DNA from: a candidate division WOR-3 bacterium
Lineage (GTDB): Bacteria > Hydrothermota > Tepidihabitantia > Tepidihabitantales > Tepidihabitantaceae
Direction: 5' to 3'
Assembly (NCBI GenBank): GCA_016867815.1
Contig: VGIR01000029.1
Location: 1 to 33,542 of the forward strand
DNA: 33,542 bases
Shown piece after piece: positions 2,313-26,850 of this stretch (position 1 is its first letter; every line of letters begins with the position of its first letter). A program made the translations under genes and the position numbers. The notes under the pieces are model-generated. The model had not been told where the DNA came from. It did no database searches and was given only the letters and a program-made list of their open reading frames with translations.

Positions 2313-3650
2313 CTACCTGTTGATCACGACCTTGGTGACGGCGGACGCTTCACGCGCAACGCCTGACGCCGCATGCACGAAGTAGACGCCGGGAGCGAGG
2401 CGGGAGACGTCGTTCGGGCCGGGCTTCAGGTCGAGCACCTTCCGACCATCGGAAGTGATGAGCGATGAGTGATGAGCCATGAGCGAGGCAGGTAGACGCA
2501 GCACGCCGCGGACGATGGTGATGAAGCTGGTCTCGGCGGCCCCGGACAGACGGCGCGGTGCTTCCTCGACACCGGTCAGTGCCGAGTCGCGCAGCACCGA
2601 GATGGTGAAACCGCGGTAGTCCGCCGAGTAGACCCGGTTCTGCTGCGGGTTCAGGCAAAGGTCAGAGGGCCCGCTGCCGCTGCCGATGGTCGTCAGCACC
2701 GAGTCGGACACACAGTCAATCACCGTCACTTTGCCGCTATCGTAGGTGGCGACGTATACCTTGTTGTTTGTGGAGTTGTGGAGGATTGGCCAGGGCCCGC
2801 CGACCGCGGGAACCGTGGCGACAACCGTGTCCGCAGCGCAGTCTATCACGGTCACGTTGCCGCCGGCGTAGTTCGCGCAGTACGCCTTGTTATTGGTCGC
2901 GTTGTGGCAGATGCCCTGCGGAGCGTCGCCCACCGCCACGGTGGCGACGGCCGTGTCCGCCGAGCAGTCTATCACCGTGACGTTGTCGCTCATGTCGTTC
3001 GCAACGTATACCGTGTTGTCGGTCGGGTTGTAGCAGGTCGCCCAGGGGCCGTCGCCCACGGGGATGGTGGCGACGACCGAGTCGGTCACGCCGTCGAGCA
3101 CGGTGACGTCGTCGCTGTCGTAGTTGGAGCAGTAGACCTTGTTGTTGATGAAGCTGTAACAGACGTAGTAGGGACGGCTGCCGGTCGCGACCGTGGCGAT
3201 GACCGTGTCCGTCGTCCCGTCAATCACGGTGACGTTCCCGCTGCGCTGGTTTGCCACGTAGATTTTGTTGCCGGCCAGGTTGTAGCAGAAGAACACCGGC
3301 CCGTCACCCGCCGGGACGGTAGCCACCACCGAGTCCGTCGCGCCGGCAATGACGGTCACGTTGTCGCCGGCCGTGTTCGCGCAGTAGACCTTGTTGTTGG
3401 TCGGGTTGTAGACGAGCGAGTTGGGTCGATTGCCCGCGGTGACCGTCGTGACTATCTGGTTCGTCTCGCCGTCAATCACGGTTACGTTGCCGCTCCGATT
3501 GTTCGCGCTGTAGACCTTGTTATCGGTCGGGTTGTAGCAGACGGCATTGGGGTACGACGAGTCCGGCAGGACAATGGTCGTTTCCAGCCACTGGGCGGAG
3601 ACGGCTGACAGCAGGCAGCTTACGGCCAACAACAAAGACAGCAGCTTCAA
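2313..3650 (-). CDS. secreted YVTN/YncE-like beta-propeller with sorting tail
   Basis: A 445-residue secreted protein. Signal peptide is residues 1-19 (MKLLSLLLAVSCLLSAVSA). Seven full repeats of about 42 residues and a partial eighth follow, each with a pattern like CYNPTNNKVYCAN...NVTVIDG..D.VVATV..G..P, the YVTN/YncE-type blade, so one seven-bladed propeller is likely. The C-terminus (about 375-445) is a linker plus sorting tail with GRKVLDLKPGPNDVSRL and PGVYFV, ending TKVVINR. Such tails direct type IX-type secretion in Bacteroidota; their use here is inferred. The start is TTG, chosen because a perfect AGGAGG lies 6 nt upstream and the signal peptide begins there. The upstream gene's TAG overlaps that AGGAGG. 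Two short-repeat tracts sit in the tail (2341-2382, 2455-2489). Confidence 0.85.
   Translation of the reverse strand: MKLLSLLLAVSCLLSAVSAQWLETTIVLPDSSYPNAVCYNPTDNKVYSANNRSGNVTVIDGETNQIVTTVTAGNRPNSLVYNPTNNKVYCANTAGDNVTVIAGATDSVVATVPAGDGPVFFCYNLAGNKIYVANQRSGNVTVIDGTTDTVIATVATGSRPYYVCYSFINNKVYCSNYDSDDVTVLDGVTDSVVATIPVGDGPWATCYNPTDNTVYVANDMSDNVTVIDCSADTAVATVAVGDAPQGICHNATNNKAYCANYAGGNVTVIDCAADTVVATVPAVGGPWPILHNSTNNKVYVATYDSGKVTVIDCVSDSVLTTIGSGSGPSDLCLNPQQNRVYSADYRGFTISVLRDSALTGVEEAPRRLSGAAETSFITIVRGVLRLPASLMAHHSSLITSDGRKVLDLKPGPNDVSRLAPGVYFVHAASGVAREASAVTKVVINR
2341..2382. repeat. heptamer tract after sorting motif
   Basis: Units such as cgcaacg and cctgacg in 7-nt phase, in frame between the VYFV motif and the terminal TKVVINR of the propeller gene. 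Related to the tracts at 6284-6325 and 11817-11865. Confidence 0.6.
2455..2489. repeat. heptamer tract (gtgatga type) before sorting motif
   Basis: Five 7-nt units (gtgatga, gcgatga and variants). Translated on the minus strand it gives MAHHSSLIT immediately before the DGRKVLDL motif. Confidence 0.8.
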
Positions 3651-3659
3651 CGGTTCCTC

Positions 3660-4859
3660 CTATTCTGTTACGACGACTCTGTGAACTCTCGAATCCCGGA
3701 TTCCGCGACGCCTGGGATCCTCACGGACGAAGTATACCCCGGGCGCCAGCGAACGCACGTCGTTCGGGCCGGGCTTGAGGTCTAGCACCTTTCGACCATC
3801 GGAAGTGATGAGCGATGAGTGATGAGTGATGAGTGAGGCAGGCAAACGCAGCACGCAGCGGACGATGGTGGGCAGCAAATCGCCGATGGTGCGCTCGACG
3901 CGCTCTTCAGCGACCCAACTGGCACCGCCGTCCGTGGTCCGGATGAGTACGCCGGCATGGCCGCAGGCGTAGCCGTTGAGGCCGTCGGCGAAGTCGACCG
4001 AGTTGAGGTCGGAACCAGTTCCTGACGCCTGCTGCTGCCAGGTCGCGCCGCGGTCAGTGGTGCGGATCACCGTACCGACGGCGCCGACCGCGAATCCGGT
4101 GTCGTGACCAACGAACCGGGCCGAAGCCAGCCAGAGGCCGGAACCGGTAGACTCGGGAAGCCACGACGCGCCGCCGTCGGTGGTCCGGATCGCGACGAGT
4201 GGGCCGCAGGCGAATCCGGTCCGGCAGTCGCCGGCAAAGGCGACCGACAGCAGGCGGGAGCCGGTGCCCGAGTTCTGCACCGTCCAACTGCTGCCACGGT
4301 TCGTCGTCTTCAGCACACGGCCGGAGTCGCCGACCGCGAAACCAGTGTCGGTGCCGCTTGGGAAGCAGACCGAGAAGAGGTCGACTCCGACCCCGGAGGT
4401 TTGCCCTGCCCAATTGGCGCCGCCGTCGGTTGTCAAAGCAACCATCCCGACCTCGCCGACCGCGTAGCCGGTGTCCGGACCGGAAGGGAAACTGATGGAG
4501 CGGACCGGCCGCGTCAGGCCGCTGCCGAGCAGAGCCCAGCTCTGACCCGCATCGGTCGTCCGGTAGAAGGCGGCGCCGCTCGTGCCGCCGCCGGCGTAGC
4601 CGGTTGCGCTGCCGGCCGGGAAGTCGAGTGCGTAGAGCGTGTAGGTGAACTGATGCGGCAGCGCCGACCAGGTCTGGGCAGCATCAACGGTCCGGAAGAC
4701 GGTACCGGTCGACGTAAGCCCGGTCGTGAATCCGGTGTCGGACCCGCTCGGGAAGCGGACCGCCCACAGGTCTTCACCGACGCCGATGTTCCCAGGGATC
4801 CAGCCGGCTGCGGCCAGGCTGATCGCGAGAAAGAGGGTCAGCAGCAGTCGTGATTTCAT
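3660..4859 (-). CDS. secreted YCF48-like propeller with sorting tail
   Basis: A 399-residue secreted protein with a signal peptide (MKSRLLLTLFLAISLAAAG, 1-19). Seven repeats of about 44 residues follow, each combining a strand like LFSVCFPSGTDTGFAVG with an Asp-box-like RTTDGGASW. This is the BNR/YCF48 (photosystem-assembly HCF136-like) propeller pattern, found in many secreted bacterial proteins of unknown ligand. The C-terminal ~75 residues are the linker IVRCVLRLPAS, a repeat-derived LITHHSSLIT, and the sorting tail GRKVLDLKPGPNDV...LAPGVYFVRED, ending RVVVTE. ATG start with AGGAG 7 nt upstream; the upstream gene's TAG is part of that ribosome site. Middle member of the operon. Octamer repeats at 3683-3714 encode the RRRGIRDSR stretch near the C-terminus. 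Confidence 0.85.
   Translation of the reverse strand: MKSRLLLTLFLAISLAAAGWIPGNIGVGEDLWAVRFPSGSDTGFTTGLTSTGTVFRTVDAAQTWSALPHQFTYTLYALDFPAGSATGYAGGGTSGAAFYRTTDAGQSWALLGSGLTRPVRSISFPSGPDTGYAVGEVGMVALTTDGGANWAGQTSGVGVDLFSVCFPSGTDTGFAVGDSGRVLKTTNRGSSWTVQNSGTGSRLLSVAFAGDCRTGFACGPLVAIRTTDGGASWLPESTGSGLWLASARFVGHDTGFAVGAVGTVIRTTDRGATWQQQASGTGSDLNSVDFADGLNGYACGHAGVLIRTTDGGASWVAEERVERTIGDLLPTIVRCVLRLPASLITHHSSLITSDGRKVLDLKPGPNDVRSLAPGVYFVREDPRRRGIRDSRVHRVVVTE
3683..3714. repeat. octamer tract after sorting motif
   Basis: Four 8-nt units (gaactctc, gaatcccg and variants) within the last codons of the YCF48-like gene, at the same place where its neighbours carry 7-nt tracts. Confidence 0.5.
3805..3839. 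repeat. heptamer tract (gtgatga type) before sorting motif
   Basis: Five 7-nt units, almost identical to the tracts at 2455-2489 and 4989-5023 and at the homologous codon position (encodes LITHHSSLIT). Confidence 0.8.
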
Positions 4860-4867
4860 CGGGGCTC

Positions 4868-6250
4868 CTATCTTTGGACTATGAGCTTGACGGAGAAGCG
4901 GACTGATTGCAGGAAGTAGACCCCGGGCGCGAGGCGGGAGACGTCGTTCGGGCCGGGCGTGAGGTCAAGCACCTTGCGGCCATCGGAAGTGATGAGCGAT
5001 GAGTGATGAGTGATGAGTGAGGCAGGCAAACGCAGCACGCCGCGGACGATGAACGTCGCAGGTTTGTGGCTTGGGACTTGCGGCCTGAGGTCTTCCTCGG
5101 TCCCGACGTTCCCGGTCAGGTTGCGTTTGTAGTAGATCGCGCCGTGGCCGTCGCGTGTGTCCCTCCAGATGACGTGGACAATCGAGCCCGAGAAGTCGAC
5201 AAACGGGGTCGCAACCGAGAACGAGTCGTCTACCAGCGTGCAAACCGAATCCCAACTCGCGCCGCCATCGCCGGAGTGAAGATAGAATATCCCGGTGTCG
5301 CTGCCCAGCGTGAACCAGACCACGTGGATGTTCGTGCCGTCGGCGACAATCGACGGGTATACGGACACGGCCGAGTCGGTCGTGAGCCGCTCGTCCGCGC
5401 CCCAGGTCTCGCCGTAGTCGGTCGAGCGCTTGTGGTAGATCTCGAAGTTGCCGTCGCGGCCGTCCTCCCACGCGACGTCAACGGTTGAGCCGTGGGGATA
5501 GACCGTCGGGCTGTAAGACATCGCGGTGTCGCGGGTGAGCCGGGTTTCCGGCCCCCACGTGACTCCTTGGTCCGATGAACGGCGGTAGTAGACTTCGCTG
5601 TGGCCGTTGCCGCCGTGGCGGAACTCGTTCCAGACAATGTGGACGTTGGAGTCAGATGCGGCGATGCAGGGGTCCTCAGAACGGAGCGGTGCGTTCGAGA
5701 TGCGCTGGATGGAGTCCCAGGTCTCGCCGTTGTCGGTGGACCGCCGGAAATAGACCTCGCTGTTCACCGTGTCCAGGTTCAGGGCAAGGTACACGTTCTG
5801 ACCAACTGCGGCGACTGCTGGCCACCAATTGAACAGGATCGAATCCGAGATGAACTCGTCCTCGTCCCATGTCCTGCCGCCGTCGGTCGAGCGCTGGTAG
5901 TATGATAGGTAGCGGCCGGACCGCCGGTCACGGAAGGCTAGATGCACGTTCGTCCCCGACACCGCCAGCGTCGGGAAGCCGGAGTAGGCGGGCGAGCCGG
6001 AAAGCCGGGTGTCGTCGCCCCAAGTTTCTCCCTGGTCGCTCGAGCGCTTGTAGTAGATGGCGCTGCCGTTGTTCTTGGTATCGCACCAGATTACATGCAC
6101 CGTGTCCGCGCAGGTGACGAGGCACCTGCCCATGTTCTCGTTCAGTGCCGCCGAGCTGTCTGTGGTCGAGAGCTTGCGGTCCGGCTCCCACTGCGCCAAC
6201 GCGGTCGACAGCCAGCAGGCCAGGGCAAGGAATACGAGAGATGACCTCAA
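4868..6250 (-). CDS. secreted BNR/Asp-box (sialidase-fold) protein with sorting tail
   Basis: A 460-residue secreted protein with a signal peptide (MRSSLVFLALACWLSTALAQ). It carries six Asp-boxes of the form SSDQGETWG, STDGGRTWD or STDYGETWG, spaced about 50-60 residues apart, each preceded by a HVIW/HLAF strand and a YYKRS segment: a six-bladed sialidase-type propeller. The catalytic Arg triad and Tyr/Glu of true sialidases cannot be confirmed, so enzymatic activity is not claimed. The C-terminus has the same linker and sorting tail as its two downstream neighbours, ending KLIVQR. The start is TTG, supported by GGAG 6 nt upstream and by the signal peptide; again the GGAG overlaps the TAG of the upstream remnant. 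First intact gene of the operon whose promoter is at 6491-6519. Confidence 0.85.
   Translation of the reverse strand: MRSSLVFLALACWLSTALAQWEPDRKLSTTDSSAALNENMGRCLVTCADTVHVIWCDTKNNGSAIYYKRSSDQGETWGDDTRLSGSPAYSGFPTLAVSGTNVHLAFRDRRSGRYLSYYQRSTDGGRTWDEDEFISDSILFNWWPAVAAVGQNVYLALNLDTVNSEVYFRRSTDNGETWDSIQRISNAPLRSEDPCIAASDSNVHIVWNEFRHGGNGHSEVYYRRSSDQGVTWGPETRLTRDTAMSYSPTVYPHGSTVDVAWEDGRDGNFEIYHKRSTDYGETWGADERLTTDSAVSVYPSIVADGTNIHVVWFTLGSDTGIFYLHSGDGGASWDSVCTLVDDSFSVATPFVDFSGSIVHVIWRDTRDGHGAIYYKRNLTGNVGTEEDLRPQVPSHKPATFIVRGVLRLPASLITHHSSLITSDGRKVLDLTPGPNDVSRLAPGVYFLQSVRFSVKLIVQR
4989..5023. repeat. heptamer tract (gtgatga type) before sorting motif
   Basis: Five 7-nt units, third copy of this family in the operon, encoding LITHHSSLIT. 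DNA identity to the other two tails extends on both sides of the tract. Confidence 0.8.
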
Positions 6251-6259
6251 CGCATTCTC

Positions 6260-6483
6260 CTATCTTGTCACGATGACCTTGGTCATACGCTCGATGCCTG
6301 ACGCACTACGCATCACGCCTGACGCCGGGGCGGACGATGCGAAGCCTGCCGTCCGACGGCAGAAGTACACGCCCGGGCGCAGCCGAGATAGATGAAGCCG
6401 TCCGGCGGCTCGAACTTCGCTCCGTAGTGTGCTGCCGCCGACAGCACCAGACAGCAGAGCAGCGCGCTCACTGCATGTCGCAT
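6260..6483 (-). pseudogene. gutted secreted-protein remnant: signal peptide joined out of frame to sorting tail
   Basis: An ATG at 6483 opens a signal peptide (MRHAVSALLCCLVLSAAA) and about 16 further residues (to GFIYLG, near 6390). In another frame the following DNA encodes the end of a sorting tail, SRLRPGVYFC...ERMTKVIVTR and TAG at 6260-6262. The body of the protein and most of the tail domain are missing and the two ends are out of frame. The most direct reading is an internal deletion of a gene like its neighbours. The promoter at 6491-6519 lies so close that the ATG would be at or within 1-2 nt of the transcript start. Its TAG supplies part of the ribosome site for the next gene, so the remnant may persist as the operon's leader. 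A heptamer tract (6284-6325) lies in the tail. Confidence 0.7.
6284..6325. repeat. heptamer tract (ctgacgc type)
   Basis: Six 7-nt units: catacgc, tcgatgc, ctgacgc, actacgc, atcacgc, ctgacgc. Nearly the same string of units occurs at 11817-11865 in the other remnant. Confidence 0.8.
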
Positions 6484-6490
6484 ATGATGG

Positions 6491-6519
6491 ATGCTAGCGC
6501 GCACCGGCCTCGCTGTCAA
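6491..6519 (-). promoter_or_regulatory. sigma70-type promoter of the propeller operon
   Basis: On the minus strand TTGACA (6519-6514), 17-nt spacer, TAGCAT (6496-6491). The ATG of the remnant is 8 nt beyond the -10 box, so the transcript is leaderless or nearly so. Confidence 0.65.
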
Positions 6520-6544
6520 AGCTCGGCCATCTCGCCGGTTTGCC

Positions 6545-6572
6545 TTGACCGGTCAGCCGGCCGGGCTAGGCT
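6545..6572 (+). promoter_or_regulatory. probable promoter for DUF3795-VOC genes
   Basis: TTGACC (6545-6550), 16-nt spacer, TAGGCT (6567-6572), about 20 nt before the ribosome site AAGGAG. Divergent from the propeller-operon promoter. Confidence 0.45.
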
Positions 6573-6598
6573 TGTCTGCGCTAACCCAAGGAGCACCC

Positions 6599-6964
6599 AT
6601 GCCTGAACTGCTTGGCTACTGCGGCATCAACTGCGCCGCCTGCCCGACCCAGATTGCGACCCGGACCCGTGACGAGGCCCTGCGGGCCAAGACCGCGGCC
6701 GAGTGGTCCAGGTCTTCCGACCATGTCTTCAAGCCCGAAGAACTCCACTGCGTCGGCTGCACGGTCGAACCGGGGCCGCATGTCGCCTACTACGAAGCGT
6801 CGTGCGAGATACGCAAGTGCGCCCGCTCGCACAAGGTCGATAGCTGCGCGCATTGCCCTGAGTACGGCTGTGCGACCATCGCCGAGTTCCAGAAAGACAT
6901 GCCTGAAGCCAAGGCCCGCCTCGACGCCATCCGGGCTGCGCGCCGAAGCCAGACTGAAACGTAA
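6599..6964 (+). CDS. DUF3795 family cysteine-rich protein
   Basis: A 121-residue protein with the DUF3795 signature: GYCGINCAACP at residues 6-16, a second cluster LHCVGC, and a C-terminal cluster CEIRKC...SCAHCPEYGC. The regularly spaced cysteines suggest metal binding (Zn or Fe-S), but the family has no established function. I start at the ATG at 6599, since AAGGAG lies 7 nt upstream and the family normally begins a few residues before the first CG.NC; an in-frame extension upstream is possible but has no ribosome site. Its TAA stop overlaps the AAGGAGG of the next gene 9 nt away, so the two are co-translated. Confidence 0.85.
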   Translation: MPELLGYCGINCAACPTQIATRTRDEALRAKTAAEWSRSSDHVFKPEELHCVGCTVEPGPHVAYYEASCEIRKCARSHKVDSCAHCPEYGCATIAEFQKDMPEAKARLDAIRAARRSQTET

Positions 6965-6973
6965 GGAGGAACA

Positions 6974-7339
6974 ATGCCGCGAGTCATACACTTTGACCTG
7001 ATGTCCGAACAGCCCGAGAAGCTCGTCGAATTCTGCGCTGCTGTGTTCGGGTGGAAGATCTTCAAATGGGACGGCCCGATGGAGTACTGGCTGGTCGGCA
7101 CCGGCGACAAGACGCAGGCGGGCATCGACGGCGGCATCGGCCGCGGCAAGCCGGTCGACCAAGTCGTCCTCACGCTTGATGCGGCCAACCTTGACGCGAT
7201 GCTCGCCAAGGCCGTGGCGGCCGGAGCCAAGGTCGTGCAGCCGAGAGGGCCGATTCCCGGTGTCGGCTGGTTCGGCGCGGTTCGGTCGCCGGATGGAAAC
7301 CTGTTCGGCCTGATGCAGGACGACCCGGCCGCGAAGTAG
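6974..7339 (+). CDS. VOC family protein (glyoxalase/bleomycin-resistance fold)
   Basis: A 121-residue vicinal-oxygen-chelate protein. It opens with VIHFDLMSEQPEKLVEFCAAVFGWKI, where the H5 and the paired beta-alpha-beta module are typical. The second module begins around VDQVVLTLDAANLDAMLAKAV and ends with GWFGAVRSPDGNLFGLMQ, the usual position of a D/E metal ligand. Substrate is unknown; metal binding is plausible but not certain. ATG start with TAAGGAGG 5 nt upstream, overlapping the stop of the DUF3795 gene. Its stop lies exactly where the truncated WG-repeat gene on the other strand breaks off (7337-7339). Confidence 0.85.
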   Translation: MPRVIHFDLMSEQPEKLVEFCAAVFGWKIFKWDGPMEYWLVGTGDKTQAGIDGGIGRGKPVDQVVLTLDAANLDAMLAKAVAAGAKVVQPRGPIPGVGWFGAVRSPDGNLFGLMQDDPAAK

Positions 7340-7518
7340 CGCGGCGGAATGACGACGCGTCCATCCATGTCCATGTAGCCCCGCCGCAGCTCCTGCCGTT
7401 CCGCTATGACACACAGCCCCTCGGAGTAGAGGCCATCGACTTGGTACTGTGGCAGCCGAACCCGGGCCCGCGGCATGACGTAGTCGCGCCAGCAGCCGAG
7501 CAGAGGCAGGAGCAACAT
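7337..7518 (-). pseudogene. truncated WG-repeat lipoprotein fragment
   Basis: In the gap between the VOC gene and the peptidase remnant, the minus strand encodes ALMLLLPLLGC, a lipobox-like signal peptide, followed by one WG-type repeat: LYSEGLCVIAE...RRGYMDMDGRVVIPPRYFAA. WG-repeat proteins normally contain several such units; here the match stops after one, at the 3' end of the VOC gene. The first in-frame ATG (7518) would leave only a very short signal peptide and no ribosome site is visible. I read it as the 5' part of a secreted lipoprotein gene, cut off at its 3' side. It lies downstream of and parallel to the S8 remnant. Confidence 0.5.
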
Positions 7519-7623
7519 GAGAGCCAGCCCCGCACGTCTGTGCAGGTCGAGAACACGAATGTACCGTACAAGACGGTCGTCGAAGGCCGGCGAAGTCAGG
7601 ACGCGGCGTTGCAGGGCCACTCC

Positions 7624-9191
7624 CTATTTGACGAGGACTACGCCCCGCACGGTTTGCGCGTGATAGCTGTGTCCCGGCTGCTCCCGCACGAAGTAGACGC
7701 CGGGCGCGAGGCGGGAGACGTCGTTCACGCCGGGGCGCAGGTCCAGTGCCTTGCGGCCCGCTGCGTCGAGCAGCGAGTTTGTGCTTGGGCTTGTGCTACT
7801 CGGCAGGTATAGCACGCCCCGGATGATGACGGCTGGAACTGAGCGAGGCGAACTTGGGGGTTCGGCGCCCTCGATGCCGTAGGGCTGAGTAGACATCCTC
7901 ACCCTGCCGGCGCCGAGCTTGCCCGCCCAGTACAGCGAGTCAGGCATCGTGTCGCACATGTTCTCCAGGAGTTGCACTGCACTGTCATTCGATATGTCCG
8001 GCCAGGCAGATTTGAACCACGCCAGTACGCCGACTACGATGTTGCAGGCCGGTATGTTCCCGTCACGGTAGCGGTGGCCGGAGTGACCGCGGTCGAATAG
8101 ATGTCCTTGCCCGGGGCAGTGACGTCAATCCACGTGCCGTAGCCCGACCACGGCGTCTTGCGGTGGTCCCGTCCGCAGCCCGCTACCGCCACGACGCCAT
8201 CGTACGCCGCCGGGTAGGTCCGTTCCTCCATCGCGCTGGTTCCGGCAGGGGCGCACGGTATCGATCCGGCATCCCAGGCGGCAAGGCAGGCGTTCGCCAG
8301 TGGTTGATATGGCGTGAGGGTGCCGAAGTTCATCGAGAATGCCCACACCCCCTGCGCCATGCAGTAGTTGATGGCGGCGATGGCGGCTGACATTGAGACC
8401 CCCAAAGAGTCCCCGCAGCGCATGGCGTATGTTCTCACGTTCCATGGCGGCGCGGCAACGCCGATGCCGTTGTCGGTGACGGCATTCTGCACGCCAAGGC
8501 AGTGCGTACCAGCGGGGTCGTACTCGGGTGGCATCGGGTCCGGGTCTCCGCTATGGAAATCGAAGCCGATGACGTCATCCTCGTAGCCGTTGGCGTCATC
8601 GTCCACTCCGTTGAGGTCGCCGTCCGGCGCCCACTCCGGGTCGAACCGGCGGTCGCCGTTCAGGTCCTCCAATGCGTTTATTGCGATGTTGGCCTCAAGA
8701 TCAGGATGGGTCCAGTCCGGAGCGTCGGCAATCATTGCGGTCAGGACGTTGCTGTCGCCGTGCGCGATTGCCCACGCCCGCGGCGCGTTGATATCAGCCA
8801 GGTGCCACTGCGCGGGGTAGAGCGAGTCATTCGGCACACTGTCGATGGCAAACAGAACGTTGGGGCAGACGTACTCCACAACCGCACTGCTCGCGAGTCG
8901 GCCGACCAGTGCCGGCACGTCGACCGACGGGTCGAATTTCAGCAGGTATTGAAGGTCGAGTCCGTGGGCCAGGGCGTGCTTGTTCGGGCGGCGCAGAATT
9001 CGTTCGTAGCGGAGGACCGGAATGTCCGTCACCCCGAGCTGGGGGATGCTAGTCCCACTTTCACCGAGCCCGCTCCGCATCGCCGCAGTGAACTTCACTA
9101 CTACCTGTCCCGGCACGTACCGGTCGCTGATGGGCGTGGCCTCCCCTGGTACGGTTGACAGCAAGAGCAAAACCAGCGCCGCGCATCTCAT
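7624..9191 (-). pseudogene. S8 (subtilisin-like) serine peptidase, frameshifted and catalytically damaged, with sorting tail
   Basis: The 5' part (9191-8034, 385 residues) has a signal peptide, an inhibitor-like segment beginning YVPGQVVVKF, and a recognisable S8 domain: MIADAPDWTHPDL (155-165), a Ca-site-like DLNGVDDDANGYEDDVIGFDF, the His region PAGTHCLGV (H230), and an oxyanion-type FSMNFG. It stops just after GTY where GTS(M)A should be. From about 8050 another frame continues with NIVVGVLAWFKSAWPDIS, GKLGAGRV and a full sorting tail ending GVVLVK at 7624. So one nucleotide is missing at the catalytic-serine motif, the Ser codon itself is altered, and the canonical Asp (normally in IDTG) reads Ala (IADA). 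This is either a pseudogene or a sequencing error on top of an inactive pseudopeptidase. ATG with GGAGGAG 3-4 nt upstream, overlapping the TAG of the preceding gene. Confidence 0.8.
7778..7801. repeat. short heptamer tract before sorting motif
   Basis: About three 7-nt units around tgtgctt/gggcttg, encoding STSPSTNS on the minus strand, at the same linker position as the gtgatga tracts of the paralogues. Confidence 0.45.
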
Positions 9192-9200
9192 TGACTCCTC

Positions 9201-11783
9201 CTACCTAGTCATAACCACCTTGGTGATTGACGAATGGCGAACGTCGATTGCCGAGCGGACGAAGTAGACGCCCGTCGCGAGGCGGGAGACGTCGTTCGGG
9301 CCGGGCCTGAGGTCGAGCACCTTGCGGCCGGCCGCGTCGAGTAGGGCGATTTCAGATTTCAGATTGCAGGTTGAAGATTGCAGGTCGAGCACTCCGCGGA
9401 CGATGGTTGGGCCGGGCAGCGGCGGCCGGGACAGAGCAACTGGGTGCTCGTCCTGCATCGCGGGGAAGAACCCGAACCTGCCCCAGATGCGCTGGGCGTT
9501 GTAGGTCCGGCCGCCGACAGTGCGCGCCAGGTCGCCGAAGGCGAGGAGAACCTGGTTGCCGCTTCCCCGGCAGAGAGCGGCGGTGTACTGGGCGCCGTCA
9601 CCGCCGACGACAAGCGCGGCATCGCCGACGACGCCTGCGGGGCTGATCCGCGCGCCGTAGATGTCGCGGGAACCGTTGCGGTCGTCAACCCACGTCACGA
9701 GGTAGTCGGCGCCGTCGAATGTGACGCGCGCGTTGGTCTGCGTGGCCGCGGTCGTGCAGACCGGGATGCCGGAACTATCAAGCTGGATGCCGCCCGGCGT
9801 CATCCGCGCGCAGAAGATGTCGTAGCGACCGGTGCCGTGGCGCGTGTCGTGCCAGGCCACGAGGTAGTTGGCGCCGTCGAACGCGATAGCAGGGGTGAAC
9901 TGGCCGCGCGGGGCAGTGCTGACGGGCAGACCGAGGGTGTCCAGCGAAACGCCCGTGGGCGTCACCCGCGCGCAGTAGATGTCATCCGCGTACTGGCCGC
10001 CGCGGTCGTCCTGCCATACGACCAGCGCGTTTGCGCCGTCGAAGGCGACCTCAGGGGTGTACGTCTCGCCATACCGGGTGCAGACATCGATGAAGCTGTC
10101 CCGCACGACGCCGGCCGACGTCACCCGGGAACAGTGGATGTCGGCATCCGCAAGTCCGCGCTGCCACACCACGAGGAAGTCGGTGCCGTTGTACCCGACT
10201 CGGGGGACCCCTTGCGTGCCGCGGGCGACGCGTATCGGGATGCCGCCCGGGTCGAGCACGGTGCCGGTTGGAGTCACGCGCGCACCATAGACGTCGGCCA
10301 TCATGCTGCCGGTGTCGGAGTGACGCCAGTCTTCCCACACCACGAGGAAGCTGGCGCCGTCAAACGCGACCGCTGGCGCCAACTGGCTGTAGTAGTCCAT
10401 GGTGCAGACCGGGATGCCGCCCGGGTCGAGCACGGTGCCGCCCGGCGCCACGCGACAGGCATAGATGTCAGGGTCGCCGCCGCGCCAGTCTTCCCATACG
10501 GCAAGGTAGTTCGTTCCGTCAAAGGCAAGCGCCGGGTACTGCTGTGCGTGAGCCGCCAGCGCGAGATTGACGGCCGTCGAATCGAGCACGGTTCCCGCCC
10601 GCGTGACGCGGGCGGCGTAGATGCTGGCCCAGTCGGTGTTGACGGTGTCATACTGGTGCCACAGGACCACGGAGCCGTTCCCGTTCGGGCAGACCTCGGG
10701 TTCGTAGTTGACGAGCGCGGTGACGGGAATCAGGATGCTGGTTGAATCGAGCACGACCCCGCCCGGCGTTACCCGCGCGGCCCAGATGGGCATGCCGCGG
10801 TCCTCATCCCACGCCGCGACGAAGTTCTCACCATCAAACGCGACCGCGGGATCGGTCAAGTTATCCACACGAGTTGTCCCGAGGCGTACCCCGGCAGTGT
10901 CGAGCACGGTCCCGTCCTGCGAAACCCGGGCAAAATACAAGCGGTTGCGGCCAGTCGGCGGGGCCTGGCTCCACGCGACCAGGCTGACCGTGCCGTTGCT
11001 GCCGACCGACGGCGAGTGCTCGTCGTCCGAGATTGAATTCGACACGCGAATCCCGTTGGGGTCGAGCACGATCCCGGATGACGTCACGCGGCTGGCGTAG
11101 ATGTCATAGGAGAGCATCCGCTCGTCGCTCCAAACCACGACGAAGTCCGTGCCGTTGAAAGCGACGTCCGGGAATGCCTGGTGGCCAGAACGGACGCAGA
11201 CCGGGATCCCGGCAGTGTCGAGCACGTTCCCGGCCGGGGTCACGCGCGCGCAGTATATGTCGCCGGTGCCACTGGTGTCTTCCCAGGCGACGAGGTAGTT
11301 GGCGCCGTCGAAGGCGATGGCCGGCATCGACTGGCCGCTGGCATCGGGGCTCACGCGGATGCCCGCGGTGTCGAGCACGGTCCCGGCCGACGTCACGGGG
11401 CTGGCGTAGATGCGGCTCGCGCCGCCGCTCTCGTCCCACCACCACCACGCCACGAGGAAACCGGTGCCGTCGGAGCAGACCGCCGGGTACCACTGCGTGC
11501 GCGGGGTGGTCGAAATCGGGATGCCGGCCGAGTCGAGCAGCACTCCATCCGGCGTCACGCGACAGCCGTAGATGTCTGATTCGCCGCCGCGGCGGTCTAC
11601 CCAGACGGCTAGGATGCAGGTACCGTTGAAAGCGGCGACCGAGCTGTTCTGGTTCGGGAACGCAAGGCTCGAGACGAAGCCGGTATCGAGCAGGAACCGT
11701 CCGTGGTCGAGTCCGGGCTCTGCCCGGGCCGGCGAAAGGGCCGCGGCCAGGCTGACGATTGCGGCCAGCAAGCTGTGCCTCAT
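9201..11783 (-). CDS. large secreted repeat protein (VVWxD...DIYxARVTPxGTVLD repeats) with sorting tail
   Basis: An 860-residue secreted protein with a signal peptide ending near SPARA. The body is about 13 repeats of roughly 55-60 residues plus a degenerate last one. Each repeat reads approximately AFDGxNYLVAWED...DIYxARVTPxGTVLDxxGIPV. The W/D-box spacing predicts beta-propeller blades, perhaps two stacked propellers. No enzyme motif is visible, and a structural or ligand-binding surface role is only a guess. It ends with SSTCNLKSEIALLDAAGRKVLDLRPGPNDV split by a repeat tract, then VYFVR and TKVVMTR. ATG start with AGGGA upstream, formed partly by the TAG of the preceding remnant. Two heptamer tracts lie in the tail. 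Confidence 0.85.
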   Translation of the reverse strand: MRHSLLAAIVSLAAALSPARAEPGLDHGRFLLDTGFVSSLAFPNQNSSVAAFNGTCILAVWVDRRGGESDIYGCRVTPDGVLLDSAGIPISTTPRTQWYPAVCSDGTGFLVAWWWWDESGGASRIYASPVTSAGTVLDTAGIRVSPDASGQSMPAIAFDGANYLVAWEDTSGTGDIYCARVTPAGNVLDTAGIPVCVRSGHQAFPDVAFNGTDFVVVWSDERMLSYDIYASRVTSSGIVLDPNGIRVSNSISDDEHSPSVGSNGTVSLVAWSQAPPTGRNRLYFARVSQDGTVLDTAGVRLGTTRVDNLTDPAVAFDGENFVAAWDEDRGMPIWAARVTPGGVVLDSTSILIPVTALVNYEPEVCPNGNGSVVLWHQYDTVNTDWASIYAARVTRAGTVLDSTAVNLALAAHAQQYPALAFDGTNYLAVWEDWRGGDPDIYACRVAPGGTVLDPGGIPVCTMDYYSQLAPAVAFDGASFLVVWEDWRHSDTGSMMADVYGARVTPTGTVLDPGGIPIRVARGTQGVPRVGYNGTDFLVVWQRGLADADIHCSRVTSAGVVRDSFIDVCTRYGETYTPEVAFDGANALVVWQDDRGGQYADDIYCARVTPTGVSLDTLGLPVSTAPRGQFTPAIAFDGANYLVAWHDTRHGTGRYDIFCARMTPGGIQLDSSGIPVCTTAATQTNARVTFDGADYLVTWVDDRNGSRDIYGARISPAGVVGDAALVVGGDGAQYTAALCRGSGNQVLLAFGDLARTVGGRTYNAQRIWGRFGFFPAMQDEHPVALSRPPLPGPTIVRGVLDLQSSTCNLKSEIALLDAAGRKVLDLRPGPNDVSRLATGVYFVRSAIDVRHSSITKVVMTR
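9228..9255. repeat. heptamer tract after sorting motif
   Basis: Four 7-nt units around tgacgaa/tggcgaa in the last codons of the 860-residue protein (encodes SAIDVRHSS on the minus strand). Confidence 0.5.
9348..9389. repeat. heptamer tract (gatttca type) before sorting motif
   Basis: Six 7-nt units, gatttca, gatttca, gattgca, ggttgaa, gattgca, ggtcgag. Same codon position as the gtgatga tracts of the other paralogues but an unrelated unit. Confidence 0.75.
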
Positions 11784-11792
11784 TGACTGTCC

Positions 11793-11962
11793 CTATCTGC
11801 TCACGATGACCTTGGTCATACGCTCAACGCCTGACGCACTACGCATAACGCCGGACGCCTGACGTACAAAGTAGACGCCGGGCGCGAGGCTGGAGACGTC
11901 GTTCGCGCCGGGATGCAGGTCGAGGACCTTGCGGCCATCAGCATCACCGTTAGTTTCTTCAC
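11793..11962 (-). pseudogene. second gutted remnant: start site joined out of frame to sorting tail
   Basis: A GTG at 11962 with a near-perfect AAAGGAGG 4 nt upstream opens MKKLTVMLM, the start of a signal peptide. In another frame the DNA immediately continues as DADGRKVLDLHPGANDV, PGVYFVR and ERMTKVIVSR with TAG at 11793-11795. Signal peptide end, mature domain and linker are absent. The design is the same as the remnant at 6260-6483: a good start, a complete tail, and nothing in between. Its TAG contributes to the ribosome site of the 860-residue protein gene, and it is first in its operon behind the promoter at 12092-12119. Confidence 0.7.
11817..11865. repeat. heptamer tract (ctgacgc type)
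   Basis: Seven 7-nt units, catacgc, tcaacgc, ctgacgc, actacgc, ataacgc, cggacgc, ctgacgt, nearly the same order as at 6284-6325. Confidence 0.8.
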
Positions 11963-15256: not shown

Positions 15257-18151
15257 TCAGCGCTGGGGCTTGCGGGCCCTTTCGGCGCGGGCTTTGGCCT
15301 CGGCCTCCAGCCGCGCGCGCTTCTCGGCGATCCTGCGCTCCTCTTCCTCTTCTTCTCTGCGTTCGGCCTCGGCGCGGGCCTTCGCCTCGGCCTCCAACTG
15401 GGCACGCTTACGTTCCTTGTCGGCGCGGGCCTGGGCCTGGGCCTGTAACTGGGCACGGTGCTCGGCGATCTTGCGTTCCTCTTCGGCTCGCAGTTCGCCC
15501 GCCTTGCGTTCGGCTTCGGCGCGGGCTTTGGCCTCGGCTTCCTCTTTGGCGCGCAGCTCGGCCAGTCTCCGTTCGGCTTCGGCGCGGGCCTTGGCTTCGG
15601 CCTCTTCCTTGGCGCGGCGCTCGGCGAACCTCCGCTCCGTCTCCTCGAGCTTCTTGCGCTCTTCTTCGGCGCGAGATTTGGCCTCGGCTTCCTCTTTGGC
15701 GAGCTGCTCGGCGATCTTGCGCTCTTCTTCGGCGCGGGCTTTGGCCTCGGCCTGGCGCCGTGCGCGCTTCGCCGCCAGCATCCGTTCCTCTTCTTCGAGT
15801 CGCTTGCGCTCCTCTTCGGCGCGGGCTTTGGCCTCGGCTTCTTCGCGGGCGCGCTGTTCCTCTTCGCGCCGGCGGCGCTCCTCCTCCTCTTTCCGCTTCC
15901 GCTCGGCCTCGATGCGAGCCCTTGCCTCGGCTTCTTCCCTGGCACGCTGCGCGGCGATCCGCTGCTCTTCTTCAAGCCGCTTGCGCTCGGCCTCGGCATA
16001 GGCCTTGACCTCGGCCTCCAGTTGGGCGCGCCGGTCGGCTAGTTTCCTCTCCTCCGCCCGGCGCCTGCTTGCCGCCTCGGCATCGCCCTTGATCTCGGCC
16101 TCGAGCTGCGCCCGTTTCTCCGCTACGCGGCGCTGCTCTTCCGCGACCTTGCGCTCAACTTCCTCCAGTTTCCTGCGCTCTCCGTCGAAGCGGGCTTTGG
16201 TCTTCGCCTCGTCCTTGAGCCGCTGCTGGGCGAGCCTATCTTCCTGCTCCGCGAGCCGCTTTATCTCACCCTCAGCCCGGGCCCTGGCCTCGGCCTGCTC
16301 TCTAATGCGTTGCTCGCCGAGCCGGCGTGCTTCTTCTTCTTTCCGCTTGCGCTCAGCCTCGGCGCGGGCCTTGGCCTCGGCCTCCTGCCGCGCACGCTGT
16401 TCCTCTTCGCGTTTCCTGCGGTCCTCTTCTTCTTTCCGCTTGCGCTCAGCCTCGGCGCGGGCCTTGGCCTCGGCCTCCTGTTTCGCCCGCTGGGCGGCGA
16501 CCTTCTGCTCTTCCTCTTTGCGCTTGCGTTCGGCCTCGGCCCGGGCCCTGGCTTCGGCCTCTTCCTTGGCCCGCTGCGCGGCAAGCCGCGGTTCGTCTTC
16601 AGCTTTCCGCCTGCGTTCGGCTTCAGCGCGGGCCTTGGCTTCGGCTTCCTCCTGGGCGCGCTGGGCGGCTATCCTCTGATCTTCCTCTTTGCGCTTGCGT
16701 TCGGCTTCAGCGAGGGCATTGGTCTGGGCCTGCAGCTGGGCGCGCATCTCCGCGAGCTTGCGCTCCCCTTCGGCACGGGCCTTGGCTTCGTCCATCGACT
16801 GAAGACGATTCTGGGCGCGCTTGCGTTCTTCTTCGACGCGAGCCCGGGCCTCGGCCTCTTCGCGGGCGTCCCGATCCGGACCGGCGGGTTCGGCTGTCGG
16901 CTGCCCCGCAGCCGACGGGACCAACTGCTTCGCCAGCTTCTCGGCGTCGAGCTTCTGCATCCCGGCCGCGACGCACGCGGCCGCGAATCGCTCGCCGCCC
17001 ATCTGCCCGGGCAGCGGTCGCAGTTTCTTCACAGTCTGCTCGGCACAGCCCCGCGCGCCGTTCCTCGCGAAAATGAGCAGCGCCTGTACGAGGTGCTTGA
17101 CCGCCTTGTCATTCTCGCCCTTGTCCTGGTGGAGCGTCCCGATGCTGACGAGGTTGTTCGCCTGCACCATTGAGTTGGCGACCGTGCGGCCGATCGCCAG
17201 TGCCTGCTCAAAGCTGGTCAGCGCTTTGTCGGGGTGACGCGTGGCCGAATAGAACTGACCCATGCCGTGCAGAGCTGCGGCCGCGCCCGCCTGGTTTCCC
17301 ATTCCGCGGTGCAGTTTGAGCGCCTGCTCGAGGTTCGCCTGGGCTTTCTTGACGTCGACCCGGCCCAGGTAGATAAGCCCAAGGTGGGTGAGGTTGTCGG
17401 CCTGCAGTTGCAGGTTCGCGACCTCGCGGGACTTCTCCAGCGCGTCGTCGAAGTACTTCAGCGCGTCGTCCGGCCTGGCCGCATCCTCATGGACGGTTCC
17501 CATGATACTGAGAGTCGCGGCCACGCCCGTCGGATACGCAATCTCGCGGTAGATCTGCAGCGCCTGCTTCTGCAGCTTGAGCGCCTTGTCGGTCTCGCCC
17601 GTGGCCTGGCAAACCAGGCCGATGTTGCTCAGGGCGGCTGCCTCGCCCTGCCAGTGCTTAATCCCGCGGTATGTCGTCAGCGCCAGCTCGAAGCTCTTGA
17701 GCGCTTTTTCGGGCTCTCCTTTGGCGAGTGATATGCTCCCGATGCAGCTGGTGTTGTCGGCCAGCAGGAGTTGATTGCCGGTCTCGGTCGCAATCGCCAG
17801 CGCTTCTTCGTGGAGCTTCAGGGCCTTGTCGGTCTCCCCGGTGGCATAGGATAGCCGCGCGAGATTGGTGATAGCCGCGGCCTTCCCCTGCCGGTCCCCA
17901 AACTGCTCGGCCAGCTGGGCCGACTCTTCGTGACTCTCTCTGGCTTCCTTCCACCTGCCCGGCGGTTCATGGCACAGCCCAAGCAGGCTCGCGAGCGCGA
18001 CCAGTTCGGTCCCCGCCGCCTCCTTCGTCGCCACTTTGAAGAGCAGGATCGCGTTGTCCCACTTGCAGGCCTTCATTGCCGCCCGGCCCAGTTCGAACGG
18101 AGTCCTGACCGTCGGCAGGGCATTCACGAGCCCGTCAAGGTATTCCATCAT
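15257..18151 (-). CDS. TPR-repeat protein with very long charged coiled coil
   Basis: About 963 residues. Residues about 1-375 are tetratricopeptide repeats, roughly eight units, several with the canonical ALKLHEEALAIA/ALSNIGLVC pattern. After a short Pro/Ala linker, residues about 405-964 are an Ala/Glu/Arg/Lys-rich helix built from tens of variants of AEAKARAEAERKRKEEE. It should form an extended coiled coil or single charged alpha-helix. There is no signal peptide or membrane segment, so it is probably cytoplasmic: TPRs for partner binding, helix as spacer or scaffold. The family is not recognised beyond these modules. Two ATGs are adjacent; the second (18148) is better spaced from GGAGGGG. 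Promoter at 18287-18315, terminator at 15188-15215: a single-gene transcript. Long open frames on the opposite strand here are artefacts of codon bias. Confidence 0.85.
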   Translation of the reverse strand: MMEYLDGLVNALPTVRTPFELGRAAMKACKWDNAILLFKVATKEAAGTELVALASLLGLCHEPPGRWKEARESHEESAQLAEQFGDRQGKAAAITNLARLSYATGETDKALKLHEEALAIATETGNQLLLADNTSCIGSISLAKGEPEKALKSFELALTTYRGIKHWQGEAAALSNIGLVCQATGETDKALKLQKQALQIYREIAYPTGVAATLSIMGTVHEDAARPDDALKYFDDALEKSREVANLQLQADNLTHLGLIYLGRVDVKKAQANLEQALKLHRGMGNQAGAAAALHGMGQFYSATRHPDKALTSFEQALAIGRTVANSMVQANNLVSIGTLHQDKGENDKAVKHLVQALLIFARNGARGCAEQTVKKLRPLPGQMGGERFAAACVAAGMQKLDAEKLAKQLVPSAAGQPTAEPAGPDRDAREEAEARARVEEERKRAQNRLQSMDEAKARAEGERKLAEMRAQLQAQTNALAEAERKRKEEDQRIAAQRAQEEAEAKARAEAERRRKAEDEPRLAAQRAKEEAEARARAEAERKRKEEEQKVAAQRAKQEAEAKARAEAERKRKEEEDRRKREEEQRARQEAEAKARAEAERKRKEEEARRLGEQRIREQAEARARAEGEIKRLAEQEDRLAQQRLKDEAKTKARFDGERRKLEEVERKVAEEQRRVAEKRAQLEAEIKGDAEAASRRRAEERKLADRRAQLEAEVKAYAEAERKRLEEEQRIAAQRAREEAEARARIEAERKRKEEEERRRREEEQRAREEAEAKARAEEERKRLEEEERMLAAKRARRQAEAKARAEEERKIAEQLAKEEAEAKSRAEEERKKLEETERRFAERRAKEEAEAKARAEAERRLAELRAKEEAEAKARAEAERKAGELRAEEERKIAEHRAQLQAQAQARADKERKRAQLEAEAKARAEAERREEEEEERRIAEKRARLEAEAKARAERARKPQR

Positions 18152-24499: not shown

Positions 24500-26809
24500 T
24501 CAGGTCTGCCGGTCCGGGCGGGCAGGCAGGGATTGGGTGAGTGCGCTGGTCAGTTTGACCGCACCCGCTGCCAGCGCTGCCAGGTGGATGCCGAAGACCG
24601 GCGCCAGCACGAGCGCCGTCAGGATTCCGCCGATGCCGCCGCCCACCAGGTCGAGGGCGGTGATGACGCCCGCACGCCGGGCAACGTGCTCCGGAGCGGA
24701 AGCGACGGGAGATGAGCGGGGAGCGATGAACCCGGCGACCGCGAACTGGAACCCGAGGCAGGCGCCGGCAAGGCAGTTGGTGAGCAGGAAAACCCAGGCC
24801 GGACCGGCGCGGATGAGGCCGAGGACGGCAGCGGCACACGCGCCAAGGAGAAGGTCGGAGATGAGAAAACGAGGAGTGATGAGCGCTGGGTGATGAACCC
24901 GGAGCGCCGAGTGAGTGCCGAGGAAGCCTCCGAGCACGGTGCCGAGCATGAACGCTACGACCAGCAGGGCGACGCCGGAGTAGACCGAGTCAAACCGCAC
25001 CTGCCAGGCGAAGATCAGCAGAGCCGATACCGCGGCCCCCGAGTAACCGGAAGTCAGAATCGCGAACCCGCGGCGGAAAGGCCGTCCGCGTACCCGCGCG
25101 CCCGCGAGGCCCGCAACCAGCATGACCAGGCTGAGAAGAAGTACGATGTACGATGAACGATGTACGATGTCCGACGAACCCAGCCGTGCGTACAGGGCGC
25201 CGAATGCCGGCGAGACCAGCCGATTCTCCCGCACCATGTTCAGGAACAACTCGCGCGGGAAGGCCGTCGTCGAGACGCCGAACGCCGAGCGCCGAACGTC
25301 GAACGCTGAGTCGATACCGCCCGCGGCCGGATGCAGGGCGGCGGCAAAGGTCCGCTGGCGGAACGGGTCGAGCAGGCTGGCGACATAGCCGGGATCGAGC
25401 AGCTTCGGCGGTTCTGAAAGCGTGGCCAGGCGGGAGACGAGAGCCTCAGCCGCGACGTTCAGCGCGCGGTCAGAGGCGAGCAGGAGCGGGAAATCCGCCG
25501 CCATCGGCTGCGCGTGCTCGAAGGCGGCCAGAAGCGTTCGCTGGCGGGTGGAGAGGATGCGCCCTGCGTCAAGAGAGAGACTGACCGGGTTTCCCGGTCC
25601 GGGAATCGCGAGGATGCCGCCGGGCGCGAGGCGCTCGCGGCAGAGCCGGTAGAACTCGGCGGCAAAGAGACGGCTGGAGCCGAGACTGCCGGGCGCGGCG
25701 TCGGTCAGGATGATGCAGTCGAAGGCGGCAGGGCGCGTACGGAGAAACATCACGGGGTCGGAGATGACGAGGGAGAAACGAGGAGGGGGCAGAGAAGAGT
25801 CGGACGACAGCGCAGCAAGAGACGTGCGAGCCAGCACCGGGTCGAGCTGGATGGCCACTACCTCGATGTCCGGCCGGAATCGGGAAAGCGCTGCCGGGAT
25901 TGCGAGGTCGTGGCCGAGGACCAGGACGCGGCAGGCGGCCGGATGGCAGAGCACCGGCAGCAGCGCCAGCTCCTCGATTCTCTCGCTCTGGGTCGGGGGA
26001 ATGGCCAGGGTCGGAAGTCCGTCGTAGAGGATGAGATGCTGGCCGGACCGCTCCATCCGGATGGTCTTGCCATAGGGCGAATTGGCGACCGAGGCGACGT
26101 GCTGGCCGCGCCAGGCCCTGCTCCACGCCCAGCGCTCAATCGGCAGGGCACACACCAACGAGGCAAGCACTCCCAATCCGAGGATCCAGGTTGCCCATTT
26201 CGTCCGTGTTCGTCCCGGTCCGATTCCCGCAGCCGCGATGAGCGGCAGCGCTGACAGCGCCACAACTGCCAGCGACGACAGGCGGTTGAGCAGCAGGAAA
26301 CAGGCCAGACCGCCGAGGGCCGTCCCGATGCCCTCCCAGACATAGGCGGAGCCGATACCCTGAGTCCTGCGGGCGGCAGCGGCCACGAACAAAGCGCCAT
26401 GGGTTGCTGCCGGAAGGAGCACGACCAGGAAGGTTGCCAGCAGCAGAAGCGGAATCGAGAGGGTTTCGCCCGGGAGGACGCCAAGCAGCGGACGCACCAG
26501 GATTGCCGCCGGCACCGCAGCGAGGGAGGTGAGGAGGGAGAGAGTGATGAGTGATGAGTAGTGAGCGATGAATGAGGAACGAAGACCGTAGAGCCGGGCG
26601 CCGAGGGCTTCGCACAGGACCCAGGCCGCGACCGTGACGCCGACGGAGAACTCGTTACCACCATACGCGGCCATAAGTTCGCGCAACAGGACCAGTTGCC
26701 CGGCAATCCCCAGGCAGCCGACGGCGACCAGCAGCAACGCCGACCGCCGACCGCTAACTGCCCACTCCCGACTCTCGATTCCCGACTCTCGACTCTGGAC
26801 TGCGAACAT
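24500..26809 (-). CDS. spermidine-synthase-like multipass membrane protein with repeat-tract insertions
   Basis: A 769-residue protein in three parts: an N-terminal membrane region of about six helices (from SALLLVAVGCLGIAGQLVLLRELMA to about 225); a soluble Rossmann-like domain (about 235-420) resembling spermidine synthases (NSPYGKTIRMER, LYDGLPTLAIP, RVLVLGHDLAIPAALSRF, FDCIILTDAAPG); and a C-terminal membrane region (about 545-760). This matches fused MFS/spermidine-synthase-like proteins, whose reaction is mostly unknown. The GxG of true PAPT enzymes is degenerate (LGHDL), so polyamine synthesis is doubtful. Several 7-nt repeat tracts are translated in frame: SRESGIESREW at the N-terminus, SSFIAHYSSLIT, SAFDVRRSAFGV, SSDIVHRSSYIV and RVHHPALIT. 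ATG start without ribosome site, 8 nt after a -10 box. Confidence 0.75.
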   Translation of the reverse strand: MFAVQSRESGIESREWAVSGRRSALLLVAVGCLGIAGQLVLLRELMAAYGGNEFSVGVTVAAWVLCEALGARLYGLRSSFIAHYSSLITLSLLTSLAAVPAAILVRPLLGVLPGETLSIPLLLLATFLVVLLPAATHGALFVAAAARRTQGIGSAYVWEGIGTALGGLACFLLLNRLSSLAVVALSALPLIAAAGIGPGRTRTKWATWILGLGVLASLVCALPIERWAWSRAWRGQHVASVANSPYGKTIRMERSGQHLILYDGLPTLAIPPTQSERIEELALLPVLCHPAACRVLVLGHDLAIPAALSRFRPDIEVVAIQLDPVLARTSLAALSSDSSLPPPRFSLVISDPVMFLRTRPAAFDCIILTDAAPGSLGSSRLFAAEFYRLCRERLAPGGILAIPGPGNPVSLSLDAGRILSTRQRTLLAAFEHAQPMAADFPLLLASDRALNVAAEALVSRLATLSEPPKLLDPGYVASLLDPFRQRTFAAALHPAAGGIDSAFDVRRSAFGVSTTAFPRELFLNMVRENRLVSPAFGALYARLGSSDIVHRSSYIVLLLSLVMLVAGLAGARVRGRPFRRGFAILTSGYSGAAVSALLIFAWQVRFDSVYSGVALLVVAFMLGTVLGGFLGTHSALRVHHPALITPRFLISDLLLGACAAAVLGLIRAGPAWVFLLTNCLAGACLGFQFAVAGFIAPRSSPVASAPEHVARRAGVITALDLVGGGIGGILTALVLAPVFGIHLAALAAGAVKLTSALTQSLPARPDRQT
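24871..24898. repeat. in-gene heptamer tract
   Basis: Four 7-nt units (gaggagt, gatgagc and variants) encoding RVHHPALIT in a loop between membrane helices. Confidence 0.5.
25142..25176. repeat. in-gene heptamer tract (tacgatg type)
   Basis: Five 7-nt units, tacgatg twice, aacgatg, tacgatg, tccgacg, encoding SSDIVHRSSYIV next to a membrane helix. Confidence 0.8.
25271..25312. repeat. in-gene heptamer tract (ccgaacg type)
   Basis: Six 7-nt units around ccgaacg, encoding SAFDVRRSAFGV in the linker before the C-terminal membrane region. Confidence 0.8.
26544..26578. repeat. in-gene heptamer tract (gtgatga type)
   Basis: Five 7-nt units, gtgatga twice plus variants, encoding SSFIAHYSSLIT in a loop of the N-terminal membrane region. 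Same unit as in the propeller-gene tails. Confidence 0.8.
26765..26806. repeat. in-gene heptamer tract at N-terminus (ctctcga type)
   Basis: Six 7-nt units around ctctcga/ttcccga, encoding the first residues after the start codon (QSRESGIESREW). Confidence 0.8.
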
Positions 26810-26817
26810 GGCTGCTT

Positions 26818-26845
26818 ATCGTAGGGCAGGCGAGCGGAGAGTCAA
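26818..26845 (-). promoter_or_regulatory. promoter of the membrane-protein gene
   Basis: Minus strand TTGACT (26845-26840), 16-nt spacer, TACGAT (26823-26818), eight bases, then ATG. Leader of at most 1-2 nt. Confidence 0.5.
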
Positions 26846-26850
26846 CGGCA

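Follow-up and report, generated by a model that had tools for sequence, protein, structure and literature searches.

The window analysed here, a stretch of 33,542 nt (VGIR01000029.1), is one contig of the 3.37-Mb genome of a candidate division WOR-3 bacterium. Judged by one marker protein, its nearest named relatives are candidate division WOR-3 genomes. Several of its genes end in a sorting tail, predicted to be the C-terminal domain (CTD) that serves the type IX secretion system (T9SS), and short tandem repeats, mostly with a unit of seven bases, lie in frame at fixed places of these tails. A tandem repeat whose unit length is not divisible by three would be expected to disrupt a gene, and most descriptions of heptamers place them between genes. 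We consider it likely that the tracts come from a genome-wide pool of small repeats, that the tolerance of the host protein decides which of them survive, and that copying from tail to tail spreads them. The period of the arrays, their positions, their orientation bias, and the differences in class between species are computed results, and the copying of blocks and the presence of arrays in an unrelated protein and between genes are likewise observed. The pool would consist mostly of degenerate seven-base tandem arrays, with a hexamer family and short palindromic elements. Arrays would arise at the DNA level across the genome, presumably by replication slippage favouring 7-nt units, and inside genes would persist only where a short hydrophilic loop is tolerated. 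In the T9SS tail three places would qualify: the linker ahead of the domain, the loop that joins strands two and three (site 1), and the turn that connects the final pair of strands (site 2). Once in place, a tract would also pass from one of the ~76 paralogous tails to another within short blocks of the kind left by conversion, probably through gene conversion itself, and overwriting or replacement of the loops would outpace divergence elsewhere in the gene.

Seven-base arrays and the tails that carry them

We called tandem arrays with Tandem Repeats Finder (TRF) at a score of 30 and with a separate period scan. Array densities were measured on 407 kb (12% of the genome), made up of the surroundings of the tails and seven stretches from other contigs. 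These 407 kb hold 90 period-7 arrays, versus 10, 13, and 5 arrays with periods of 6, 8, and 9, and locally shuffled sequence holds 0 period-7 arrays. A 30-residue tail core has 76 copies in the genome, and we aligned all 76 loci on it, numbering offsets from the LLDxxGRK strand. Period-7 (or period-14) arrays occupy three positions: the linker before TIVRG (-125 to -65); site 1, the loop before LLDxxGRK (-43 to +6); and site 2, the turn that follows VYFVR and precedes the last strand (+82 to +125). Period-7 coverage over the 76 tails is 30% at site 1, 16% at site 2, 7% in the linker, and 0.2 to 0.4% in the core; in the region from -600 to -125 upstream it is 0%. An earlier note, made from the letters of the window, had described short-repeat tracts at two fixed positions flanking the sorting-tail motif. 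TRF and the period scan bear this out in the window, and the period scan also far beyond it, across the 76 tails. Both sites are real, but the note had missed the third, the linker.

The three-place pattern recurs in five congeneric genomes, and genus g6 shows sites 1 and 2 (135 tails from six congeneric genomes were examined). Gene bodies in the congeneric genomes (-600 to -200) gave no period-7 array above threshold. The pattern is weaker in G007, a single-contig genome from another genus, and no such array pattern was seen in the small number of tails from G008, G014, and G017. The earlier note had proposed aligning the tails of this genome and its relatives as DNA; in that alignment the tract positions are fixed, and the units differ among genes and species. 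The signals that G007 gave at -600 to -200 resemble stretches of N, being equal in number at every period, and N was excluded from later scans. An origin in protein-level repetition is rejected, since repetition of amino acids would give the coding DNA a period divisible by three, and the observed one is 7. An assembly artefact is likewise rejected, because the pattern recurs in six congeneric assemblies and, less often, in the single-contig relative.

An AlphaFold2 (AF2) model built from 32 tails has a predicted local distance difference test (pLDDT) score of 80.9. In this model strands 34-37 and 48-51 flank the loop of site 1, and strands 74-81 and 87-94 flank the turn of site 2. The top three Foldseek matches, with modest E-values, are the NucA CTD (8glk_D, E 1.2e-3), the RgpB CTD (7pq4), and PorZ (5m11). 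The genome also carries a gene for the SprA translocon (G000:C32:13940-19441), which scores 429.8 bits against TIGR04189 when summed in frame, with a cut-off of 200. PF18962 (Por_Secre_tail) matches 61 places in the genome, two of which coincide with tail core hits (C8:19786 and C63:10240); the window proteins gave no match to PF18962 at E ≤ 0.001. The model places both sites in loops of a predicted beta-sandwich, the T9SS CTD, and the predicted fold together with the SprA gene fits Por_Secre_tail as the host domain. Besides SprA, the same genome gives nine strong matches to C25-type peptidases, and its sorting tails number at least 76. Our literature search, in which subscription papers lay mostly outside, found no paper joining WOR-3 with type IX secretion.

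By eye, a recognisable repeat fills 55 of 71 loops at site 1, in 13 classes, and 42 of 72 at site 2, in 8 classes. The heptamer classes at site 1 include AAGCNNC, AATCTGN, GCGTCNN, CTCATCA, and CTCCTCC, and there is also an AAGCNC hexamer. Palindromic elements sit at site 1 as well: an RDMT element with GGGACATGACCGAA and TTCGGATCGTGTCCC arms, a GGGACTGTACC element, and a CCCTCTCCC..GGGAGAGGG element. The palindromes are short and occupy a minority of loops; most tracts are non-palindromic heptamer arrays of 20 to 40 nt. In three G007 tails (L102, L103, L119) site 2 holds CCCTCTCCC..GGGAGAGG palindromes and then heptamers, in frame. A recurrent ATTPSLRNVGDIAL insert occupies site 1 of G007 tails. 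Empty loops measure 6 to 9 residues at site 1 and 7 to 9 at site 2, versus 13 to 14 and 14 to 15 for filled ones. These lengths are compatible with filled loops being exactly 7 residues (three units) longer than empty ones, but do not prove it.

Tolerance, copying, and turnover

The same unit families, many of them, also lie between genes, at 0.32 arrays per kb by approximate open reading frame calling. Furthermore, they occur in the loops of a non-tail protein of the window, the multi-pass, spermidine-synthase-like product of 24500..26809. In its orthologues from congeners, the same loop columns are filled by other heptamer arrays, again in frame; those from other genera have none. Since this protein carries arrays, their occurrence is not tail specific. 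Arrays in tails run 108 sense to 7 antisense, versus 39:20 elsewhere. The frame that is used has a stop codon in 0 of 122 arrays, versus 24 to 33% in any other frame, and its mean Kyte-Doolittle value is -0.87 (hydrophilic), versus about 0 to +0.15 for antisense frames. The earlier note had spoken of insertion hotspots. Such a "hotspot" is best read as a permissive loop, a reading favoured by the arrays between genes, the arrays in an unrelated protein, and the bias in orientation and frame. With a true mutational hotspot, some property of tail DNA or a dedicated enzyme would direct repeats to two positions. This would account for the density of 2.3 arrays per kb in tail regions, about sevenfold over that between genes, and for several unrelated repeat types, palindromes included, at the same two codon positions. 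Still, we regard it as highly improbable. The same families turn up between genes and in loops of the unrelated protein that have no sequence in common with the tails, so a sequence-specific hotspot is unnecessary; no fixed target sequence is evident beside the tracts; the strong orientation and frame bias points to filtering by the protein; and copying accounts for part of the excess.

The tracts also differ between close relatives. When genes of this genome were paired with their reciprocal best matches in G002 or G003, sought among fetched loci, so that some may be paralogues, the bodies were 70 to 84% identical and the insert class nearly always differed at both loops. The exceptions are one pair with a common hexamer at site 2 and possibly one related site 1 tract. 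In 3 of 7 best pairs the core DNA stands at the 97th to 99th percentile of all cross-genome pairs, which indicates that the core is orthologous and was not swapped, and that only the loops turned over. Tails 23, 53, and 60 are near-identical duplicates with hundreds of upstream bases in common. They are alike through site 1 and the core, and from site 2 onward they carry three repeat families (hexamer, GCGTCAA, and GACCGAA). That an ancestral tail bore the tracts, with inheritance and later divergence doing the rest, is barely credible. Repeat class does hold some phylogenetic signal, but unrelated unit families and palindromes sit at one position, the closest cross-species genes disagree, and so do recent duplicates at site 2. 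The earlier note had argued for repeated, independent events from the different units at one codon position. The 13 and 8 classes, the differences among congeners, and the duplicates with three site 2 classes support this, but the three gtgatga tracts that it listed do not.

An almost identical block of ~70 nt is found in the three window genes with gtgatga tracts and in one gene on contig C6; it extends from the TIVRG strand across the tract and reaches into GRKV. Linkers of these genes are 27 to 45% identical, cores are 70 to 89% identical, and bodies are unrelated. Judged from this alignment, a single gtgatga tract spread by copying among these genes, rather than being inserted three times. 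Other tail pairs with unrelated bodies have tail blocks of 70 to 200 nt in common, with ends that lie at the linker or coincide with the stop codon, as would be expected for conversion limited to the homologous tail. These blocks would equally suit pure cassette shuffling, in which paralogous tails recombine at conserved strands and no arrays are born in tails, as would the statistical independence of site 1 and site 2 classes (permutation p=0.27). We find shuffling by itself distinctly unlikely. The three orthologue-like pairs with high-percentile cores differ in their loops, the non-tail protein has the same turnover without paralogous cassettes, and separate origins would be needed for at least 13 and 8 classes.

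The other cause suggested by the earlier note was selection for flexible linkers. Selection is supported as a filter, by the orientation ratio and the hydrophilic, stop-free frame, but the support stops short of a drive. If tracts were positively selected as flexible or variable loops, they would make the secreted proteins better exported, better processed, or more diverse. The hydrophilic peptides of the sense strand, the narrow loop length, and a loop turnover that outpaces the body would all agree with this. We nevertheless think it unlikely. Tracts are common, not obligatory: 16 of 71 tails have no recognisable repeat at site 1 and 30 of 72 have none at site 2, and tails without tracts were what the earlier note had named as speaking against its view. 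Moreover, any repeat class serves, palindromic elements occupy the same loops, the same arrays lie in the non-tail multi-pass protein, and purifying tolerance accounts for the same bias. A bolder idea is that the lineage actively diversifies its tail loops, by targeted cassette exchange or repeat-templated rewriting, and that loop variety in secreted surface proteins is useful, for example against phages or for substrate sorting. We give this if anything less credence than a hotspot.

Several points weigh against a repeat pool filtered by tolerance and spread by copying. Tolerance alone falls short of the sevenfold excess in tails, so copying, retention, or some preference is needed. Copying among tails explains part of it, and retention, a preference for loop length, or mild targeting may explain the rest. 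Loops exist in the propeller bodies too, but no arrays lie in them. Array-bearing loops at site 1 are narrow in length, with 13 residues in 48 of 82, which suggests some length preference. Repeat class partly follows the tree, with 27 changes versus 36.8 when shuffled. Finally, the assignment of classes by eye and the search for best pairs among fetched loci only count here as well.

Tails and tracts of the window

The tails, tracts, and related genes of the window are listed in the table. The gtgatga tracts that the earlier note had placed at 2455, 3805, and 4989 and the gatttca tract at 9348 are site 1 heptamer arrays, and the ctgacgc-type tracts at 2341, 6284, and 11817 are site 2 arrays of GCGTCAR type. 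Those at 6284 and 11817 sit in orphan tail remnants and not, as had been thought, in intact genes. Three other descriptions did not hold. The supposed tgtgctt units at 7778 form a hexamer array; the supposed octamer at 3683 has no TRF array at score 30, and an inverted repeat is present; and the supposed tgacgaa units at 9228, also without a TRF array at that score, are at best a very degenerate heptamer pattern. Tracts at both sites of each tail-bearing gene, as the note had it, are common, but the gene at 4868-6250 and the peptidase tail lack one at site 2.

Table. Sorting tails, repeat tracts, and related genes of the window
Feature	Position	Strand	Evidence
YVTN/YncE-type beta-propeller protein with sorting tail	2313..3650	(-)	TIGR02276, 213.8 bits; tail core match
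Site 1 heptamer array, CTCATCA family, SLMAHHSSLITS, in the 2313..3650 gene	2454..2486	(-)	TRF; period-7 segment
Site 2 array of GCGTCAR-type heptamers, AASGVAREASAV	~2341..2375	(-)	sequence; class assignment
BNR/YCF48-type propeller protein with sorting tail	3660..4859	(-)	PF14870, 73.2 bits; tail core match
Site 1 heptamer array, CTCATCA family, within the copied ~70-nt block	3804..3836	(-)	TRF; block alignment
Site 2 segment with inverted repeat GGAATCC..GGATTC, no tandem array detected	3683..3715	(-)	sequence; no TRF or period-scan match
BNR_2 protein with sorting tail, no site 2 tract	4868..6250	(-)	PF13088; tail core match
Site 1 heptamer array, CTCATCA family, within the copied block	4988..5020	(-)	TRF; block alignment
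Orphan 3' tail remnant, site 2 array of GCGTCAR type at ~6284-6326	6255..6400	(-)	sequence; TRF (6296-6326)
Broken S8 peptidase gene, C-terminal part and tail, no site 2 tract	7624..7977	(-)	other frame than 8034-9191; tail core match
Site 1 hexamer array (TTGTGC/TTGGGC; ttgtgc ttgggc ttgtgc), not heptamer	7781..7800	(-)	sequence; class assignment
860-aa repeat protein with sorting tail	9201..11783	(-)	best tail core match, 97%
Site 1 heptamer array, AATCTGC family, LQSSTCNLKSEI	9347..9383	(-)	TRF; period scan score 16.5
Site 2 degenerate heptamer-like tract, encodes AIDVRHSS	9228..9256	(-)	sequence; below TRF threshold
Orphan tail remnant, site 2 array 11819-11864, site 1 truncated away	11790..11945	(-)	TRF; tail core match; period scan
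Non-tail multi-pass, spermidine-synthase-like protein, in-frame heptamer arrays in loops at 25141-25174, 25271-25306, 26542-26592	24500..26809	(-)	TRF; orthologue alignment

The S8 peptidase gene is broken across 7624-9191, with its catalytic part (8034-9191) and its tail part in different frames. The two orphan remnants have no gene body, and both keep a GCGTCAR site 2 tract. Elsewhere in the window, a TPR protein at 15257-18151 has a long E/A/R-rich repeat region with tandem units of 63, 84, and 150 bp. Apparently non-coding DNA at 500-940 and 26738-26912 holds heptamer arrays called by TRF, with units ATGCAGA, CGCCGAC, ACTCTCG, and GAAGAGG.

Known repeats and meaning

Heptanucleotides are reported to be the most abundant long repeat unit in many bacterial genomes, and polymerase slippage has been proposed as their origin (PMC4679880, PMC4692102). 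As DNA, the nearest relatives of the WOR-3 arrays are the heptamer repeats of cyanobacteria, Beggiatoaceae, and Xanthomonas described in the same papers. The cyanobacterial short tandemly repeated repetitive (STRR) sequences and the TAACTGA-type heptamers are likewise dispersed tandem units of seven bases in several families (PMC4679880, PMC4692102). The excess of 7-nt units and the dispersal between genes are both found here. Those repeats, however, are mainly intergenic and under-represented in coding DNA; this holds for WOR-3 gene bodies and fails for tail regions, where the density exceeds that between genes. The WOR-3 arrays are densest in frame in the tail loops of secreted proteins, where many families coexist. 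In the P6b stem-loop of the Nostoc tRNA-Leu intron (PMC4476775), seven-base classes repeatedly replace one another at a fixed, tolerant position, as in the tails. That case involves two classes in an RNA stem-loop, whereas in WOR-3 at least 13 classes occupy protein loops of ~76 paralogues. Rickettsia palindromic elements (RPEs; reviewed in PMC2229807) are small dispersed repeats in frame in unrelated proteins, apparently tolerated, and WOR-3 repeats also occur in this way, in tails with unrelated bodies and in the non-tail protein. RPEs are palindromes of ~100 to 150 bp, unlike the WOR-3 tracts; these are mostly heptamer arrays of 20 to 40 nt that recur in one particular loop of a single domain and turn over from species to species. 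The host domain itself, Por_Secre_tail (PF18962; 8glk, 7pq4, 5m11), is known; the window tails fall short of the Pfam model, and their loops are longer and repeat filled.

Our literature search, again with subscription papers mostly outside it, returned no description of heptamer arrays in T9SS tails. Nor did we find described, in the literature searched, many heptamer families in frame at fixed loops of one domain, in a large paralogous family and with turnover between sister species. For the proteins, this means that the peptide likeness between loops (SHKPQAAS, NLQSAICNLQSE, LITHHSSLIT) reflects repeat DNA and not common protein ancestry. For the lineage, the many secreted-protein tails of six sister genomes that carry in-frame heptamers at fixed loops, with families differing by species, are a natural experiment on the birth, orientation, filtering, copying, and loss of repeats.

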